A stretch of DNA of 32,338 nucleotides from Paludibacter jiangxiensis. GTDB lineage: Bacteria; Bacteroidota; Bacteroidia; Bacteroidales; Paludibacteraceae. A model generated the notes under the pieces. That model did no database searches. It was not told the DNA's origin and was given only the letters and a program-made list of their open reading frames with translations. Below, piece after piece: positions 12,150 to 21,135 of this stretch (position 1 is the first letter of the stretch; each line of letters starts with the position of its first letter). A program made the translations under genes and the position numbers. The stretch lies in the NCBI GenBank assembly GCA_945870155.1, contig CAMBSB010000041.1:1-32338 (forward strand), given 5' to 3'.

Positions 12150-12205
12150 ATCACCCCATCATCATATCATCAAATCACCACATCATTACATCATCACATC
12201 ACCTT
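12150..12205. repeat. Octamer array (7 degenerate units) between uxaB and uxaA
   Basis: Reading the plus strand, the units are ATCACCCC ATCATCAT ATCATCAA ATCACCAC ATCATTAC ATCATCAC ATCACCTT. The first four bases ATCA are constant in all seven, and the period is exactly 8. The array touches the uxaB stop codon at 12204 and fills most of the uxaB-uxaA spacer. It belongs with the other short-period arrays in this window. Confidence 0.7.
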
Positions 12206-13700
12206 ATTCCTCAAAAATTGGAAGTTCAAAGTCCATTTTAACCGATAAGTTGTATTTTTTCGAAACTATTGTTCTGACAGTTTCTTTCATGCCAAATTCT
12301 TGAATAAGTCTCAGATAAAAAGTTAATTTATCGGTTAGACCCGGTATATTATTCAAATTTTCATCCCAAATAAATTCGGCAGCGAGTACCCCTTTTGCCA
12401 CAGTTTCAATATCATTTAAACTCCAAAGTATCTTCAATAAATCCACAATCGCTTTGTCATCATTTGGTACAATGTCGGTATTGCCACGTTTGCCGCCCTT
12501 GTAATAAGTTATTATGGCTGCCAATCCTAATACAAGGCCTACAGGTAATTCTCCTTTGCGTTCTAAATATTTTTTTAGACCGGGCAAATCGCGTGTTTTA
12601 AATTTCGGGAAAGAATTAAGCATTATACTTGTGAGGAAATGATGTACAAATGGGTTGTTGAAACGTTCCAGTACATCGTTTGCAAATTTTTGTAACTCTT
12701 TTTTAGGTAAATCGAGTGTTGCAATTAATTCTTTATACATTACCATATAAATGAATTTTGAAATTACATCATCTCTCAAACACTCTTTTACAATGTTTAA
12801 ACCCGCTAAATAACCAACCGGTGCCAAAACAGTATGAGGGCCGTTCAACAAAGTAACTTTACGTTCGTGATAAGGCTTTTCGTCGGGAACAAACAGTACA
12901 TTCAATCCTGCTTTTTGTGCCGGAAATTCCTTTGCTACACTTAGTGGTGCTTCTATTACAAATAAGTGGAAAATCTCAGCCTGAACCACCAATTTATCTT
13001 CCAACTGAATTTTCTCCAAAATTTCATTGATAGTTTCGCGTGGATAACCTGGTACAATGCGGTCGACCAAAGTTGAATAAACACCACAAGCCGTTTCGAA
13101 CCAGTTTTTAAATGCTGCACCCAGTTCCCAAAGTTCTATATATTGTTGAATAGTTTTTTTCAATTCAGTTCCATTGTGAAAAATCAATTCGCATGGAAAT
13201 ATTAGCAAACCTTTATCGGGAGCACCATTAAAAGTTTTGAAACGGTGGTAAAGTAATTGTGTTAATTTGCCCGGATATGAACTGGCAGGAGCATAGTCCA
13301 ATTTACATTCTTCATCAAATGCAATTCCGGCTTCGGTAGTGTTTGAAAACACAAAACGCATTTCAGGTTGTTCGGCAAGTTTCAAATAAGCCTCGAAATC
13401 ACTGTAAGGATTCAATGAACGGCTAATAACGTCAATTAATTCAATATCATTTACAATATTACCTTTTTCAAGTCCTTGCAAGTTAACATGATACAAGCCA
13501 TCTTGCTCATTAAGCATGTCTATCATACCATTAGCTAAAGGTTGAACCACTACCACGCTCGAATTAAATCCGGCATTTTTATTCATTCTATTTACCATCC
13601 AGTCAACAAAAGCACGTAAAAAATTGCCTTCACCAAATTGAATAATGCGTTCAGGATAGGTGTTTGTAATGTTTGCCGAAATTCTGTTCAGTCTTTCCAT
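12204..13700 (-). CDS. uxaB: Tagaturonate reductase (altronate oxidoreductase)
   Basis: This 498-residue protein matches UxaB of the mannitol-dehydrogenase (polyol-specific long-chain) family, which reduces D-tagaturonate to D-altronate with NADH. The signature IIQFGEGNFLRAF at residues 19-31 is the dinucleotide-binding start (GxGNFxRAF). A substrate-domain block follows (VTLLNGPHTVLAPVGYLAG), containing the N-G-x-H segment expected of the active site, and LLIFPCELIFHNG lies between. The length is close to known UxaB (about 480-500). It is the first gene of uxaB-uxaA. Upstream are a candidate -7 box (13830-13837) and a pair of operator-like palindromes (13893-13980). I am confident of the family; the exact epimer specificity is supported by the adjacent uxaA. 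Confidence 0.93.
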   Translation of the reverse strand: MERLNRISANITNTYPERIIQFGEGNFLRAFVDWMVNRMNKNAGFNSSVVVVQPLANGMIDMLNEQDGLYHVNLQGLEKGNIVNDIELIDVISRSLNPYSDFEAYLKLAEQPEMRFVFSNTTEAGIAFDEECKLDYAPASSYPGKLTQLLYHRFKTFNGAPDKGLLIFPCELIFHNGTELKKTIQQYIELWELGAAFKNWFETACGVYSTLVDRIVPGYPRETINEILEKIQLEDKLVVQAEIFHLFVIEAPLSVAKEFPAQKAGLNVLFVPDEKPYHERKVTLLNGPHTVLAPVGYLAGLNIVKECLRDDVISKFIYMVMYKELIATLDLPKKELQKFANDVLERFNNPFVHHFLTSIMLNSFPKFKTRDLPGLKKYLERKGELPVGLVLGLAAIITYYKGGKRGNTDIVPNDDKAIVDLLKILWSLNDIETVAKGVLAAEFIWDENLNNIPGLTDKLTFYLRLIQEFGMKETVRTIVSKKYNLSVKMDFELPIFEE

Positions 13701-13837: not shown

Positions 13838-13892
13838 TACATTTAGTGTTGTGATATTTGGAAATAACATTAGTTGGAGGTTAGAATTTAGT

Positions 13893-13980
13893 TTCCGTGT
13901 TCGCACACAGTTTAAATACTCGACAAAATTAGAGAAATATTTCCATATATCAAAATATATTCCGTGTGCGAACACGGGAA
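13893..13980. promoter_or_regulatory. Paired LacI-like operators upstream of uxaBA
   Basis: CCGTGTTCGCACAC (13895-13908) recurs as its exact reverse complement at 13964-13977. Each copy is itself an imperfect palindrome with a central CG (GTGTTC|GCACAC and GTGTGC|GAACAC), the usual shape of LacI-family operators. Centre-to-centre distance is 67 bp, a spacing that could allow looping. GC-rich words of this kind are conspicuous in an AT-rich spacer. A LacI- or GntR-type hexuronate regulator is the likely ligand, but no regulator gene is in the window. Confidence 0.55.
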
Positions 13981-14250: not shown

Positions 14251-14322
14251 ATGAACGCGACAAAGTTTTTCTCCCTTATGAACTTTTTAATCCTTTCATT
14301 GTTTAAAACATTAGAACTTTAA
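14251..14322 (+). CDS. 23-codon ORF rich in Leu and Phe, possible second leader
   Basis: It reads MNATKFFSLMNFLILSLF then KTLEL, with six Leu and five Phe residues. It sits about 165 bases upstream of the leu leader promoter. No terminator with a T-run follows directly; only an AT-rich hairpin lies near 14327-14346. AT-rich DNA easily yields such frames, so support is weak. Confidence 0.2.
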   Translation: MNATKFFSLMNFLILSLFKTLEL

Positions 14323-14434
14323 AACAGTATATTTCTAAATATGCTTTATGTGGATAGTTCTTTAAATTTTACTGAAATTTCACTGCTTTAATGCTGAATT
14401 GTAATATAAATAATGAAAAATATATCATTTCGTA

Positions 14435-14465
14435 TTTGCAGGTTTCAAAAATAGCTGTATCTTTG
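14435..14465 (+). promoter_or_regulatory. Consensus Bacteroidota promoter of the leu operon
   Basis: TTTG at 14435-14438 and TATCTTTG at 14458-14465 are separated by exactly 19 bases, matching the TTTG-N19-TAnnTTTG consensus. Transcription would start near 14470-14473, about 16 bases before the leader-peptide ATG. Confidence 0.8.
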
Positions 14466-14487
14466 TGCCGAAATTATAAAAAATATA

Positions 14488-14550
14488 ATGAACAGAAATT
14501 TTTTACATATCCTTCTACTCGGAATTATTATTCTCTTGCAAAACAAGTAG
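14488..14550 (+). CDS. leuL: Leu/Ile-rich leader peptide of the leu operon
   Basis: The frame runs from ATG 14488-14490 to TAG 14548-14550 and encodes 20 residues beginning MNRNF and continuing LHILLLGIIILLQNK. Six residues are Leu and four are Ile. The Leu codons are TTA, CTT, CTA, CTC, CTC and TTG, so CTA and CTC codons, unusual for AT-rich DNA, are concentrated here. It begins close to the predicted transcription start, lies about 40 bases ahead of an intrinsic terminator, and precedes leuA. This is the arrangement of an attenuator leader peptide at which ribosomes stall when Leu- or Ile-tRNA is scarce. It is too short for ordinary gene callers. The symbol is by analogy to the enterobacterial leu leader, not by homology. 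Confidence 0.82.
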   Translation: MNRNFLHILLLGIIILLQNK

Positions 14551-14627
14551 AAGTGAGTTTGGTATGTAGTAAATACAATGTATAATATATAAAGCCTTTC
14601 TCACTACGGTGTGGAAGGCTTTTTTTT
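14512..14627 (+). promoter_or_regulatory. Attenuator: mutually exclusive RNA pairings
   Basis: Segment 1 (CTTCTAC, 14512-14518, inside the Leu codons) is complementary to segment 2 (GTAGAAG, 14547-14553, over the leader stop). Segment 2 continues AGTGAG (14552-14557), complementary to CTCACT (14600-14605) in the ascending arm of the terminator, with GG/CC extending it beyond an internal loop. Segment 3 otherwise pairs with segment 4 to form the terminator. A ribosome stalled on the CTT CTA CTC codons would cover segment 1, free segment 2 and block the terminator. This is the classical four-segment logic. Confidence 0.72.
14591..14627 (+). terminator. Attenuator terminator before leuA
   Basis: AAAGCCTT (14591-14598) pairs with AAGGCTTT (14615-14622). 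Inner pairs T14599-G14614, C14600-G14613 and CAC/GTG enclose the loop TACG closed by C-G, i.e. a very stable cUACGg tetraloop. One T-T mismatch interrupts the stem. A run of eight T follows (14620-14627). It lies between leader peptide and leuA. Confidence 0.9.
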
Positions 14628-14631
14628 AGGG

Positions 14632-14655
14632 TTGCCCCTAACCACCTTCAGGGGT
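14632..14655. repeat. GC-rich intergenic word
   Basis: TTGCCCCTAACCACCTTCAGGGGT is a copy of the C-run/G-run word, here directly after the attenuator T-run. Confidence 0.55.
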
Positions 14656-14720
14656 ATTGAGAGAAAAAGAATTTAATTATTGATTATATATTACCCTTGC
14701 CTCCAATTATTTTGGGTAAT

Positions 14721-14745
14721 TCCCCCTTTAGGGGGTTAGGGGGCT
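14721..14745. repeat. GC-rich intergenic word just before leuA
   Basis: TCCCCCTTTAGGGGG followed by TTAGGGGGCT ends eight bases before the leuA ATG, in the position where a ribosome would load. The first block can fold into a short hairpin (CCCCCTTTAGGGGG). Confidence 0.65.
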
Positions 14746-14752
14746 TACAATT

Positions 14753-16246
14753 ATGGACAGATTATTTATTTTCGACACAACATTACGCGACGGCGAACAA
14801 GTTCCCGGATGCCAGTTAAATACCGTAGAAAAAATTCAAGTGGCTCGTGCTCTCGAAACTTTGGGTGTTGATGTTATTGAAGCTGGTTTCCCAATTTCAA
14901 GTCCCGGCGATTTTAATTCGGTAGTAGAAATTTCAAAAGCAGTTACATGGCCTACAATTTGCGCTTTGACACGCGGTGTACAAAAAGATATTGATGTGGC
15001 TGCTGACTCTCTCAAGTTTGCAAAGAATAAACGTATTCATACAGGAATAGGAACTTCTGAGTTTCATATTAAACATAAATTTAATTCTACTCAGGACGAA
15101 ATTCTTGAACGCGCAATTGCAGCCGTAAAACATGCCAAAAAGTATGTGGAAGATGTTGAATTTTATTGCGAGGATGCAGGACGAACCGATAATGTTTATT
15201 TGGCTCGTGTAGTTGAAGCGGTTATCAAAGCTGGTGCTACTGTGGTTAATATTCCAGATACAACAGGTTATTGTTTACCTTGGGAATATGGTGAAAAAAT
15301 TAAATTCTTGATGGAAAACGTGAAAGGTGTACACAATGCTGTAATATCTACACATTGCCACAATGACCTCGGCATGGCAACTGCCAATACCATGGCCGGA
15401 GTGCTTAACGGTGCGCGCCAGGTGGAAGTGACAATCAACGGCATTGGTGAACGTGCCGGAAACACTTCTTTGGAAGAAATTGCCATGATTCTGAAATGTC
15501 ATAAATCATTGGAGATTGAAACTCAAATTAATACACAGAAAATATATTCAACCAGCAGATTAGTTTCAGGATTGATGAATATGCCTGTGCAGGCAAATAA
15601 AGCCGTGGTTGGTCGCAATGCTTTTGCACATTCTTCGGGAATTCATCAAGATGGTGTATTGAAAAATCGCGAAAGTTATGAAATCATGGATCCTAAAGAT
15701 GTTGGTATTGATGAAAACTCTATAGTTTTAACTGCCCGCAGTGGACGTGCTGCTTTAAAACATCGTTTAAGTGTTTTAGGAGTGAATGTTGAAGGGGATC
15801 ATTTGGATAAAATTTATGAAGAATTTCTTAAATTAGCTGATAAAAAGAAAGATATAAATGATGACGATGTGCTTTTGCTAGCCGGAAAAGAACGTACAGA
15901 AAAACAACGCATACAAATTGACTATTTACAAGTAACTTCTGGAGTGGGAGTGAAGTCTGTAGCCAGTTTAGGTCTGTTAATTGCCGGAGAAAAATTTGAA
16001 GCAGCGGCATCAGGAAATGGTCCGGTTGATGCAGCTATCAAAGCATTGAAACAAATTATTAAACGTACCATGACTTTGCAGGAATTTACTATACAAGCTA
16101 TTAACAAAGGTAGCGATGATGTGGGTAAAGTTCACATGCAAGTGGAACATAATGGCGCAATTTATTATGGTTTTGGAGCAAATACCGATATTGTTGCAGC
16201 ATCAGTAGAAGCATATATCAATGCAATTAATAAGTTTGTGAAATAA
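14753..16246 (+). CDS. leuA: 2-isopropylmalate synthase
   Basis: This 497-residue enzyme condenses 2-ketoisovalerate with acetyl-CoA, the committed step of leucine synthesis. The catalytic TIM barrel starts with [17 protein letters not shown] (residues 5-21), the signature of the LeuA/homocitrate synthase family. The metal-binding [12 protein letters not shown] is near residue 201 and [14 protein letters not shown] near 226. The [15 protein letters not shown] block follows at about 289. The C-terminal regulatory (LeuA dimerisation) domain contains [16 protein letters not shown], so leucine feedback inhibition is expected. It is the first structural gene of leuA-leuC-leuD-cimA-leuB and lies behind the attenuator, with GC-rich words on both sides. 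Confidence 0.96.
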
Positions 16247-16326: not shown

Positions 16327-17787
16327 ATGAATAATTCAGAGAATAATGATAAACGCTCCACAACTCCCCCTTCAGGGGTCTGGGGGGCAGGTAGGGCAAC
16401 TACCCTCTTTGATAAAATCTGGGATGCGCATGTCGTATCATCAGTCGAAAACGGTCCAACACAGTTGTATATAGATCGTCATTTTTGCCACGAAGTTACA
16501 AGTCCTCAGGCATTTAACGGACTTCGTACACGTGGGCTAAAAGTGTTTCGTCCTGAGTTAACAACAATGACGGCCGATCACAATACGCCTACAATCAATC
16601 AGGATCAACCTGTTCAGGATCCAATTTCTCGCAATCAGTTGGATACTTTTGCACAAAATGCAAACGACTTCAATATGCCCCTGTTTTACCCACTTGGTCA
16701 TATCAAAAATGGAGTTGTGCATATAATTGGACCTGAAAACGGTTTTACACATCCCGGCATGACAATAGTTTGTGGCGATAGTCACACTTCTACACATGGA
16801 GCTTTTGGAGCCATTGCTTTTGGTATTGGAACAAGTGAAGTGGAAATGGTTTTGGCTACGCAATGTGTGCTTCAGTCGCGCGCTAAAACTATGCGTATTA
16901 CTTTCAACGGTAAATTGAATGCCGGTGTAACTGCTAAAGATTTGGCACTTTACATGATTTCAAAACTCACTACAGGTGGTGCAACAGGATATTTTGTGGA
17001 ATATGCCGGCGAAGCAATCCGCAATCTTTCTATGGAAGAACGCATGACCGTTTGTAACCTTTCAATCGAAATGGGTGCACGTGGTGGACTTATTGCTCCT
17101 GACCAAACAACTTACGACTATGTTAAAGGTCGTGAGTTTGCTCCAAAAGGTGAAGAGTGGGACAAAAAATTAGCTTATTGGAAAACTTTGAAATCTGACG
17201 AAGGCGCAAAATTCGATAAGGAATTGGAATTTAATGCTGCTGATATTCAGCCCATGATTACTTACGGAACAAATCCGGGTATGGGAATGGGAATTACAGA
17301 CTCTATTCCTACTTTGGAATCGATAGATGAAGCCGGACGTATATCGTACCAGAAATCATTGGAATATATGGGATTGGAAGCTGGTGAAAAACTTGAAGGA
17401 AAAACCATTGACTATGTTTTCCTTGGAAGTTGTACCAATGGACGTATCGAGGATTTCCGTGTATTTGCCAATTATGTAAAAGGTAAAAAGAAAGCCGATA
17501 ATATAACAGCTTGGCTAGTACCGGGAAGTTGGATGGTAGAAAAACAAATCCGCGAAGAAGGTTTATATGAAATTCTTACAGAAGCCGGCTTTGCATTGCG
17601 TCAACCGGGTTGTTCGGCTTGTTTGGCTATGAATGATGATAAAGTTCCTGCAGGAAAATATGCAGTTTCAACTTCAAACCGTAACTTCGAAGGTCGTCAG
17701 GGTCCTGGAGCACGTACAATTTTGGCCGGTCCACTTGTTGCGGCAGCTGCTGCGGTAACAGGAAAAATTACTGATCCTCGTAATTAA
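16327..17787 (+). CDS. leuC: 3-isopropylmalate dehydratase, large subunit
   Basis: This is the 486-residue aconitase-family large subunit that, with LeuD, isomerises 2- to 3-isopropylmalate and should also act on citramalate. Family blocks are [14 protein letters not shown] (50-63), [20 protein letters not shown] (149-168) and [11 protein letters not shown] (367-377). Cluster cysteines are expected at Cys369, Cys429 and Cys432 ([11 protein letters not shown]). The conserved protein begins at [12 protein letters not shown] (residue 26). Residues 1-25 are extra, and residues 11-24 ([14 protein letters not shown]) are encoded by a GC-rich intergenic word lying in frame. No ATG occurs between the word and the conserved start, so translation through it seems obligatory unless a non-ATG start is used. 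It is followed 16 bases later by leuD. Confidence 0.95.
16363..16390. repeat. GC-rich word inside the leuC coding region
   Basis: ACTCCCCCTTCAGGGGTCTG followed by GGGGGCAG is a typical copy in the orientation of the one before the MATE gene, but it lies within the leuC reading frame at codons 13-22. The protein outside this part is conserved, so the word looks like an insertion that extended the N-terminus without breaking the frame. Confidence 0.7.
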
Positions 17788-17803: not shown

Positions 17804-18388
17804 ATGGAAAAATTCATTAAATTAACTTCAACAGTTGTTCCACTTCCAATTGAAAATGTGGATACTGATCAGATTATACCTGCACGCTTCTTGAAAGCAA
17901 CAGACAAAAATGGTTTTGGTGACAATCTTTTTGCCGACTGGCGTTATAACAAAGATGGCAGCCCTAAAGCCGACTTCGTATTAAATAATGCCCTTTATAG
18001 CGGTTCTATACTAGTGGCTGGAAAAAACTTCGGTTCAGGTTCAAGTCGTGAACATGCGGCCTGGGCTATAGATGGTTACGGATTTAAAGTAATAGTATCA
18101 AGCTTTTTTGCTGATATTTTTCAAAATAATGCATTGAACAATGGTGTGTTACCGGTTGTTGTTTCTGTTGAATTTTTGGCTGAGATTTTTGCTTGTGTAA
18201 ATGCAGATGCTAAATCAACATTAACTATAGATCTTCAAAACCAAACAATAACAAATAATGTTTCTGGAAATTCAGAAACATTTGCCATAAATGCTTACAA
18301 AAAAGAATGTTTGCTGAATGGACTCGATGATATTGATTATCTGTTGAGCAAAAAAGCACAAATCGAAGCATACGAAGCTGCAAGATAA
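17804..18388 (+). CDS. leuD: 3-isopropylmalate dehydratase, small subunit
   Basis: This 194-residue partner of LeuC carries the swivelling domain that completes the active site. Early residues [17 protein letters not shown] (15-31) and the substrate-binding block [17 protein letters not shown] (73-89) are diagnostic; the Ser-Ser-Arg-Glu-His string contacts substrate in the family. Length is typical (about 190-200). It lies 16 bases after leuC, so the two are expected to be made together. Downstream is a perfect 13-bp hairpin separating it from cimA. There is no sign of truncation. Confidence 0.96.
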
Positions 18389-18433: not shown

Positions 18434-18454
18434 ATAAATAAAAAATTGAAATTT

Positions 18455-19987
18455 ATGATTGAAATAATGGATACCACACTCCGCGATGGAGAACAGACAT
18501 CGGGAGTATCTTTTGCACCACAGGAAAAATTAAGCATTGCACGGCTGCTACTCGAAGAGTTGGGAGTTGATCGCATTGAGATTGCTTCTGCTCGAATTTC
18601 ACAAGGTGAGTTTAATTCTGTTAAGAAAGTTTCGGATTGGGCTCGTGAACACGGACATATTCATAAAGTTGAAGTGCTGGGTTTTGTCGACGATAGAAAT
18701 TCGCTGAATTGGATGAAAGATGCCGGTTGTGAAGTGTTGAACTTATTGTGTAAAGGGTCAGAGAATCATTGTATTTATCAACTTAAAAAAACACCCGACG
18801 AACATATTGCTGACATAAAAAATGTGTTGGCCAATGCACGTGAAATGGGAATTAAGGTAAATATTTATCTCGAAGATTGGTCAAATGGTATGCGTAATTC
18901 GGAAGATTACGTTTATTATGTTGTTGAAAATCTGCGACATGAATCTATCATGCGTTTTATGTTACCGGATACTTTGGGTGTATTAAATCCAACGGAAACA
19001 GGTGATTATTGCAAACGTATGATACAACATTTTCCCGATTTACATTTCGATTTTCATGCACATAACGATTATGATTTAGCTGTTGCCAATGTATTTGAGG
19101 CCGTAAAAGCCGGTGTACACGGTATACATGTAACCATCAATGGATTGGGCGAAAGAGCAGGAAATGCTCCATTGTCGAGTGTCGTTGCGGTTTTGCACGA
19201 TCAATTGAAACATAAAACCAAAATTAAGGAGTCAAAAATTAATTCAGTTAGTCGATTGGTTGAATCTTATGCAGGAGTGCGCATTCCTGCCAACAAACCG
19301 GTAATTGGCGATTATGTTTTTACACAAGTGGCTGGTATACATGCCGATGGTGATAATAAGAAAAATCTATATTATAATGATCTTTTGCCCGAACGTTTTG
19401 GGCGTGAACGACTATATGCACTAGGTAAAGCATCAGGTAAAGCAACTATCCTTAAAAATCTTCAACAATTGGGCATAGAGCTCGATAATGAAATGATGCA
19501 AAAAGTTACAGCACGGGTTATCGAATTAGGAGATAAAAAAGAAATGATTACGCTGGACGAATTGCCATATATTGTTTCGGATGTTATAAAAAGTGAGCAG
19601 GAAGATCAGTTAATTAAAATATTGAACTATTCGCTGTCGGTAACGCAAGGTTTACGACCTATGGCCAATGTCAAGATGGAAATAAACGGTGAAGTTTTCG
19701 AACAATCGGCTTCGGGCGATGGGCAGTACAATGCTATATCTAAAGCCATGTACAAGATTTATAAAAAACAAAACAAACCAACCCCGGAATTAATTGATTA
19801 TCAGGTAGTCATACCTCCAGGCGGAAAGACAGATGCGATAGTACAAACTATTATCACCTGGCAATTTGATGGTAAAGTTTTTAAAACAAGAGGCTTGGAT
19901 GGCGACCAAACTGTTGCTGCACTCAAAGCTACTGAGAAAATGTTGAATATAATTGAGACAAACAATATTCCTACAAAACAAGGTTAA
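18455..19987 (+). CDS. cimA: Citramalate synthase (LeuA-like)
   Basis: This is a second LeuA/homocitrate-synthase-family enzyme of 510 residues from the ATG at 18455; a TTG at 18446 in the same frame is less likely. Blocks are [82 protein letters not shown] and a C-terminal regulatory domain with SASGDGQYNAISKAM and IPPGGKTDAIVQT. From memory these follow the characterised Leptospira citramalate synthase far more closely than LeuA, including the Tyr in NIYLEDWSNG and the LNLL stretch near the pyruvate pocket. It would condense pyruvate with acetyl-CoA to (R)-citramalate, which LeuCD and LeuB convert to 2-ketobutyrate for isoleucine. The alternative is an isopropylmalate synthase paralogue. 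Confidence 0.82.
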   Translation: MIEIMDTTLRDGEQTSGVSFAPQEKLSIARLLLEELGVDRIEIASARISQGEFNSVKKVSDWAREHGHIHKVEVLGFVDDRNSLNWMKDAGCEVLNLLCKGSENHCIYQLKKTPDEHIADIKNVLANAREMGIKVNIYLEDWSNGMRNSEDYVYYVVENLRHESIMRFMLPDTLGVLNPTETGDYCKRMIQHFPDLHFDFHAHNDYDLAVANVFEAVKAGVHGIHVTINGLGERAGNAPLSSVVAVLHDQLKHKTKIKESKINSVSRLVESYAGVRIPANKPVIGDYVFTQVAGIHADGDNKKNLYYNDLLPERFGRERLYALGKASGKATILKNLQQLGIELDNEMMQKVTARVIELGDKKEMITLDELPYIVSDVIKSEQEDQLIKILNYSLSVTQGLRPMANVKMEINGEVFEQSASGDGQYNAISKAMYKIYKKQNKPTPELIDYQVVIPPGGKTDAIVQTIITWQFDGKVFKTRGLDGDQTVAALKATEKMLNIIETNNIPTKQG

Positions 19988-20058: not shown

Positions 20059-21135
20059 ATGAGTAAAACATTAAATCTGGCAGTTTTGCCTGGTGATGGT
20101 ATCGGACCTGAAATTGTAGAACAAGCTTTAAATGTAACAAAGGCAGTTTGCCAGAAATTTGGTCATTTATTAACTTATGAGTATGCCATTGTTGGTGCTT
20201 GTGCCATAGATGCAGTGGGTGAACCTTATCCAAAAAGTACACATGAACTTTGTATGAAATCTGATGCGGTGCTTTTCGGTGCTATTGGCAATCCAAAATA
20301 TGATAACGACCCTTCTGCCAAAGTTCGTCCTGAACAAGGATTGTTAAAAATGCGCAAAGATTTAGGTCTTTATGCCAATATTCGTCCGGTTACAACTTTT
20401 CCTTCACTGATACACAAATCACCACTTCGTGCCGATTTAGTTGATGGTGCCGATTTTATGTGTATACGTGAGTTGACTGGCGGGATGTATTTCGGACGAC
20501 CACAGGGTAGGAGTGAGGATGGCAATACTGCTTACGATACTTGCGTTTACACGCGTGAAGAAGTAGAACGTATTCTTCATTTAGCTTATAAATATGCCGG
20601 ACAACGTAATAAAAAAGTAACCATTGTTGATAAAGCAAATGTTTTGGCAACTTCACGTCTTTGGCGTCAGATAGGTCAGGAAATTGCACCTCAATATCCT
20701 GAAATTGAGACAGAATTTATGTTTGTTGACAATGCAGCTATGCGTATAATTCAGTGGCCAAAAAGTTTTGATGTGTTGGTAACTGAGAATTTATTTGGAG
20801 ATATATTGACAGATGAGGCTTCAGTAATCACAGGTTCTTTGGGTATGCTACCTTCGGCATCTGTAGGTATTCATACATCAGTTTTTGAGCCGATACATGG
20901 TTCGTATCCTCAGGCTGCCGGTAAAAACATCGCCAATCCTTTAGCTACCATTCTTTCGGCAGCATTGATGTTTGAGTATGCCTTTGGTATGATGGAAGAA
21001 GGTGCGTTAATACGTGAAGCGGTGGCTGCCAGCATGGATGCCAATGTGGTAACTGAAGATATTGCCGATAATGCAAAAGCTTATTCCACTTCGGAAGTAG
21101 GTGAGTGGATAGTTAATTATATCAACAAGAAGTAA
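20059..21135 (+). CDS. leuB: 3-isopropylmalate dehydrogenase
   Basis: This 358-residue enzyme oxidises and decarboxylates 3-isopropylmalate to 2-ketoisocaproate with NAD+. The start [18 protein letters not shown] (residues 7-24) and the substrate segment [11 protein letters not shown] (about 137-147) are diagnostic of the IMDH/ICDH family. The metal-site region is [28 protein letters not shown], with the Asp residues that bind Mg/Mn, and [20 protein letters not shown] follows. It closes the operon 71 bases after cimA. If cimA is a citramalate synthase, LeuB would also process the methylmalate intermediate. No terminator is immediately downstream; the candidate is at 21442-21471. Confidence 0.96.

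Follow-up and report, generated by a model that had tools for sequence, protein, structure and literature searches.

The stretch of Paludibacter jiangxiensis DNA analysed here (the window: 32,338 nt, contig C41) carries a leucine operon on its plus strand, and we asked how transcription of this operon is controlled. The first gene, leuA (14753-16246), encodes 2-isopropylmalate synthase and is followed by leuC (16327-17787), leuD (17804-18388), a cimA-like gene (18446-19987) and leuB (20059-21135). The four leu genes score over the cut-offs of the NCBIfam models TIGR00973, TIGR00170, TIGR00171 and TIGR00169, respectively. The cimA-like gene has NF042433 CimA as its best NCBIfam match (E 4e-199, below the model cut-off) and contains a LeuA_dimer domain; we read it as a citramalate synthase of the isoleucine branch. 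Citramalate synthase is the entry to isoleucine from pyruvate. A sequence-only reading had proposed that a Leu/Ile attenuator precedes leuA. Conservation, covariation, rare Leu codons and matching leaders before ilvD, pheA and trpB all support that proposal, and we consider it very probable that the leu leader is a ribosome-mediated transcription attenuator which senses charged tRNA-Leu and tRNA-Ile.

The elements expected of such a device are all found upstream of leuA on the plus strand. The promoter described before, TTTG-N19-TATCTTTG, is borne out by direct reading of 14435-14465: a Bacteroidota-type -33 element, TTTG (14435-14438), is followed after 19 nt by the -7-type element TATCTTTG (14458-14465). 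The promoter is assigned by consensus alone and transcription is predicted to start near 14472. The pattern TTTG-N18..21-TAnnTTTG is present in 33 of 44 leaders of the genus, and TAnnTTTG lies at most 60 nt before the leader ATG in 44/44 of them versus 16/272 control pieces taken farther upstream, with a spacing to the ATG of 17-24 nt in 43/44. Between this promoter and leuA is a leader ORF of 20 codons, MNRNFLHILLLGIIILLQNK (14488-14550; ATG at 14488, stop TAG at 14548-14550), whose residues 6-17 are specified by six Leu and four Ile codons among the 12, exactly as had been read. By eye, no Shine-Dalgarno sequence is evident before it; Bacteroidota make little use of such sequences. An intrinsic terminator stands ahead of leuA at ~14592-14627 (hairpin ~14592-14622, TACG loop, T8 at 14620-14627), again as the sequence-only reading had it. 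Its hairpin carries a mismatch and was not listed by a simple pattern scan, and sequence at the leader stop codon is complementary to part of its 5' arm.

The leader is well above random expectation: when 14301-14752 was shuffled with dinucleotides preserved, an ATG ORF of 8-45 residues with at least 9 Leu/Ile per 10 residues arose in 0/2000 shuffles, and 88/2000 reached 7 per 10. The leader RNA fold has a z-score of -4.1, with 0/200 shuffles equally stable. NCBIfam and Pfam searches with the leader peptide returned no match. Such a structured 5' region with both a terminator and an antiterminator is also what would be seen if a ligand- or tRNA-binding RNA, a riboswitch or T-box, controlled the terminator and the ORF were incidental. 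We regard this as extremely improbable: no Rfam covariance model reached its gathering threshold anywhere in the window (no T-box, riboswitch or other leader), and the conserved positions lie in the codon run and in the strands that switch partners.

Other repeats flank these elements. A CCCCTTTAGGGG palindrome lies at 14723-14734 and related repeats at ~14631-14658, between the terminator and leuA, and repeats resembling CCCCTTTAGGGG also occur near trp genes of the same genome (L307, L308); they are perhaps a REP-like element. On the other side, in the gap that separates the leu leader from the minus-strand gene at the end of the 12204-13700 block, a stretch resembling CCGTGTTCGCACACGG occurs in inverted copies at 13890-13979; the second copy is palindromic in its own right and has T after it.

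A ribosome-mediated attenuator requires strands that can exchange partners, and the leader contains three of these ahead of the terminator's 3' arm. Segment 1 (14504-14521), around the first Leu codons, comprises TACATATC (14504-14511), CTTCTAC (14512-14518) and ACTCG (14517-14521). Segment 2 (14547-14568) comprises GTAGAAG (14547-14553), AGTGAG (14552-14557), TGAGT (14554-14558) and GGTATGTA (14561-14568), and can pair with either segment 1 or segment 3. Segment 3 is CTCACT (14600-14605), which pairs with the antiterminator strand AGTGAG of segment 2 or joins the 5' arm of the terminator. The antiterminator (2:3) shares nucleotides with both the 1:2 helix and the terminator (3:4) and is thus exclusive with each, and covariation supports these alternatives.

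Within the genus, we aligned 41 distinct leaders (alignment A1; 3 identical rows of the 44 were dropped). The 1:2 helix proposed earlier, CTTCTAC with GTAGAAG, is complementary in the window and is partly conserved: all 7 pairs form in 7/41 sequences, at least 6 in 26/41 and at least 5 in 34/41. The lower stem TACATATC:GGTATGTA, which extends this helix below, and ACTCG:TGAGT, an alternative to its top that overlaps it, each have 97.6% of cells paired. In the antiterminator AGTGAG:CTCACT, five pairs form in 41/41 sequences and the outermost pair in 38/41. One base distinguishes antiterminator from terminator: the invariant U114 (window position 14601, in segment 3) pairs with segment 2 in 41/41 genus sequences and, in 31/41, is mispaired with U or C in the terminator. 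Because the antiterminator scarcely varies within the genus, the genus alone yields no covariation for it, and such evidence has to come from more distant relatives.

We therefore turned to 86 of 93 leu leaders from Bacteroidales (alignment A4), which were fitted to 1:2 and 3:4 and so aligned blind to 2:3. The antiterminator has 91.0% of its cells paired in A4, versus 35-58% for slid versions, and 21 double-change cells versus 4.1 in shuffles, which supports the 2:3 pairing of 14552-14557 with 14600-14605. Nine of the 21 are one U-A to C-G change and may be a single event. Among the compensated variants are AGCGAG:CTCGCT, and GTAAG:CTTAC replacing GTGAG:CTCAC. Covariation is also seen in the 1:2 and terminator helices, though A4 was fitted to them; paired changes preserve the 1:2 stem, the antiterminator and the terminator in these 86 leaders.

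Pairing of the stop region with the terminator arm was also scored sequence by sequence against shuffles (p<=0.05). The test was passed by 38/44 genus leaders, 24/38 from other genera of the family, 15/35 wider Bacteroidales leu leaders (two more are without a terminator by our finder) and 17/19 ilv leaders, as well as by the ilv and pheA leaders of the window's own genome and by another pheA leader (L142).

We wondered how widely this arrangement occurs. LeuA was found in 46/48 genomes of the genus (E<=1e-150), and 44 of these 46 leuA genes have upstream a leader of 19-22 residues, of the type NNFLHILLLGIIILLQNK, in which the Ile run is kept. At the remaining two loci (L009, L046) the contig stops ~125-140 nt upstream; both give partial model matches. 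Relatives without the Leu/Ile run or the stems had been named beforehand as what would speak against an attenuator, and among these 46 loci the exceptions are the two at contig edges.

For the family, covariance model R1, built on 1:2 and 3:4 only, matched 123/250 genomes in 21/33 genera (E<=0.01). From these we fetched, by choice, 60 matches: 40 from other genera and 20 second matches. Of these, 58 precede a gene for LeuA (37), IlvD (19), LeuD (1) or prephenate dehydratase (1), and two (L128, L146) have no gene called; L146, which also failed the pairing test (0/1), is probably a false match and was rejected as a leader. At one locus before ilvD (L137) the script called no leader ORF. Model R2 matched 129/295 genomes of the order in 93/178 genera, and the best 29 R2 loci of the order, two of which belong to the same family and were already in the family set, all precede LeuA (23) or IlvD (6). 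Named records with such a leader before leuA include Bacteroides cutis (MIRNFTYILLCGIIILLAKFSGSECCA) and B. stercorirosoris (MIQNFTYILLCGIIILLAKFSGSECCA). Matches to the terminator hairpin in antisense were removed by a stricter E-value, which also lost 7/93 leu leaders. In a set of 80 leuA loci, which overlaps the genus and family sets, 15 lack a Leu/Ile/Val-rich ORF in the upstream stretch of at most 500 nt; for 4 of these the upstream sequence is shorter than 150 nt, leaving 11/80, and 3 more of the 80 have doubtful candidate ORFs only.

Beyond the order, LeuA was matched in 92/148 genomes of a phylum sample, and among 29 leuA loci inspected outside the order (L230-L258) there was none at which a convincing leader immediately precedes leuA; another gene ends just upstream in several of them. 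The corresponding IlvD search in the class says little on other orders, because only 4/119 genomes matched at E<=1e-80. R2 matched 66/247 genomes in the phylum at E<=0.01; beyond the order, we accept as real the matches at the nine loci whose sequence was read.

If these leaders sense amino acids, their codons should follow the genes behind them, and this match is observed directly. In the window's own genome, the Leu/Ile leader precedes leuACD-cimA-leuB, a Val/Leu/Ile leader (MISKNVYTILVNVVLLLVNKQK) precedes ilvD, a Phe/Tyr leader (MINRFFTYFYFYFYFNK) with terminator precedes pheA (L227, contig C110), and a Trp leader (MKLMLTVNKFWWWHLQIS) with terminator precedes trpB (L308 2084-2140, contig C160); trpE sits inside the operon in this genome and the Trp leader stands before trpB. 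No leader was seen upstream of HisG in the same genome, and a script scan for Thr/Ile-rich ORFs in the 1500 nt before the matched domain of homoserine dehydrogenase, rather than before the gene start, found none. Outside the order, leaders containing WWW precede anthranilate synthase component I (L295, L297, L299), and Ile-rich leaders precede genes of two kinds: an acetolactate synthase small subunit (L292 and L293; its identity was tested in L305, which is the same place as L292) and class IV aminotransferases (identity tested for L294 and judged by sequence for L296, L298 and L300).

The Ile content of leu leaders was also compared with the presence of CimA, using hand-chosen family operons followed for ~7-12 kb (tblastn, E<=1e-20). 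In 15 family operons with CimA, the leaders contain 2-7 Ile, two of them (L087, L114) having just 2. In genus g33, no CimA match lies near leuA in four genomes, and all four have the leader NSILLSLLLLC, with one Ile; in one of them ~21 kb around the locus is clear of CimA. As this pattern was seen in one genus, it is probably one event. The g33 leu operons (L310, L325, L326, L328) also have extra sequence between leuA, leuC and leuD.

Codon choice in the leaders differs markedly from that of ordinary genes. Of the Leu codons in 22 window genes, CTC accounts for 4% and CTA for 6%; the corresponding shares in the 44 genus leaders are 37% and 23%, so that the two together make up 60% in leaders versus 10% in genes. 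The same codon is retained in 189/250 same-residue comparisons with codons 6-17 of the window leader, versus 772/1813 for Leu, Ile and Gly codons of leuA (counted over those of L005-L033 whose leader is equally long and whose leuA start was matched by pattern). Leader Ile codons are mostly ATT, the common one. The contrast between rare Leu and common Ile codons would fit an attenuator for which Leu alone is the main signal and the Ile codons are secondary, but we hold this to be unlikely: the Ile run is kept in the genus, and there are few Ile codons where no cimA match adjoins leuA, though this is seen in one genus.

The same codon data bear on whether the ORF instead encodes a small functional hydrophobic peptide that merely precedes leuA, the hairpin being an ordinary terminator. 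The peptide is highly conserved in the genus (HILLLGIIILLQNK) and would fit a transmembrane stretch. A membrane peptide would not be expected to use rare codons with synonymous conservation, to read VNVVLLLV, FYFYFYF or FWWW at the corresponding place depending on the gene behind, or to have a stop region that pairs with the terminator through compensatory changes, and we judge this explanation very unlikely.

We thus return to ribosome-mediated attenuation. Here we infer ribosome stalling, coupling of transcription to translation, an order of folding and a response to Leu and Ile. RNA polymerase would start near 14472 and a ribosome would follow it on the leader ORF. When charged Leu or Ile tRNA is scarce, the ribosome would stall within codons 8-17, at rare Leu codons or in the Ile run, and would cover segment 1, so that AGTGAG could pair with CTCACT before segment 4 is made; with 2:3 formed, transcription would continue into leuACD-cimA-leuB. 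A ribosome that reaches the stop codon would cover segment 2, allowing the 3:4 terminator to form and the RNA to end near 14627. If the leader were not translated, 1:2 would form first, then 3:4, and transcription would stop too.

RNA folding largely agrees with this scheme. The ribosome edge was assumed to lie 11 nt past the A-site codon; with this assumed footprint, segment 1 alone is covered while the ribosome sits in the codon run, and segment 2 becomes covered once it is at the stop codon. For RNA that ends at segment 3 and has its ribosome in the Leu/Ile run, 2:3 has a probability of 0.93-1.0; the complete ribosome-free RNA folds into 1:2 plus 3:4. Once the RNA is full length, the equilibrium favours the terminator even if a ribosome is stalled on it, and the antiterminator must therefore win on timing. 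As the same preference is seen in silico for the E. coli leu leader, we do not count it against attenuation. In ribosome-free RNA ending at segment 3, 2:3 is favoured (0.86-0.89) over 1:2 at equilibrium, so termination without translation depends on 1:2 forming first.

A further arrangement was found at six loci before ilv genes (L301-L306, in genomes G684, G748, G550, G622, G861 and G274, respectively), in Bacteroidales and beyond the order. Each has two neighbouring R2 matches, with two leader ORFs in series and a T-run hairpin after each, and the units precede genes for ilvD or for the large or small subunit of acetolactate synthase. In the 60 nt ahead of the first leader, TAnnTTTG is present at 6/6 loci; for the second leader the count is 0/6. 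Judging from this layout, two branched-chain attenuators behind one promoter-like site could possibly form a two-step switch.

The leuA leader resembles that of E. coli leuLABCD in having a short ORF with a rare Leu run, a T-run terminator with leuA behind it, a leader that pairs with the 5' arm of the terminator, and the same in-silico behaviour. Comparison by eye with E. coli leuL (MTHIVRFIGLLLLNASSLRGRRVSGIQH) shows no likeness beyond the Leu run: leuL has LLLL and no Ile run, whereas the leader here has an Ile run, and the promoter here is of the Bacteroidota type, unlike that of leuL. To our knowledge, the E. coli leu operon is without cimA.

The mechanism is classical ribosome-mediated attenuation, a kind already known, and it has been hinted at in this phylum before. 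In Flavobacterium psychrophilum, of the same phylum, leader-peptide attenuation was suggested upstream of amino-acid operons, in a section which names no leucine leader and no Bacteroidales (PMC9723704), and a passage on B. thetaiotaomicron describes short ORFs in long 5' UTRs as "reminiscent of leader peptides" (PMC7366714). Naville and Gautheret (2010) knew of such attenuators only in Proteobacteria and Actinobacteria until they added a case from Firmicutes (PMC2965389). Leader-peptide attenuators of amino-acid operons are described in Actinobacteria (PMC1262725), including that of Corynebacterium ilvBNC (PMC11857589), and by description follow the same principle in another phylum. Tandem attenuators with two short ORFs in one leader are described for Salmonella mgtCBR (PMC3641672); the genes are different, and the ilv double units each consist of a branched-chain-rich leader and a terminator. 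Judged by title and abstract opening, no paper among the open-licence matches listed describes a Bacteroidales leu leader. In the parts of the literature covered, such attenuators are barely described in Bacteroidota, with later hints being brief. As far as these limited searches show, what is new is the description in Bacteroidales, the breadth, the leu/ilv/phe/trp set and the serial ilv double attenuators.

We lean towards a broader interpretation, in which leader-peptide attenuation is a main and old way for Bacteroidota to sense branched-chain and aromatic amino acids: one build would serve leu, ilv, phe and trp in a single genome, the codons would follow gene content (Ile with cimA), and the serial ilv pairs would act as a two-step switch in several lineages. 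If true, this would imply that transcription and translation are coupled in the phylum. As such leaders precede leuA in Bacteroides species, they open amino-acid control in gut commensals to direct tests. Since the ribosome must closely trail RNA polymerase, attenuation would be a natural reporter of transcription-translation coupling. The logic is the expected one, its distribution is unexpectedly broad, and it offers a testable handle on coupling in Bacteroidota.
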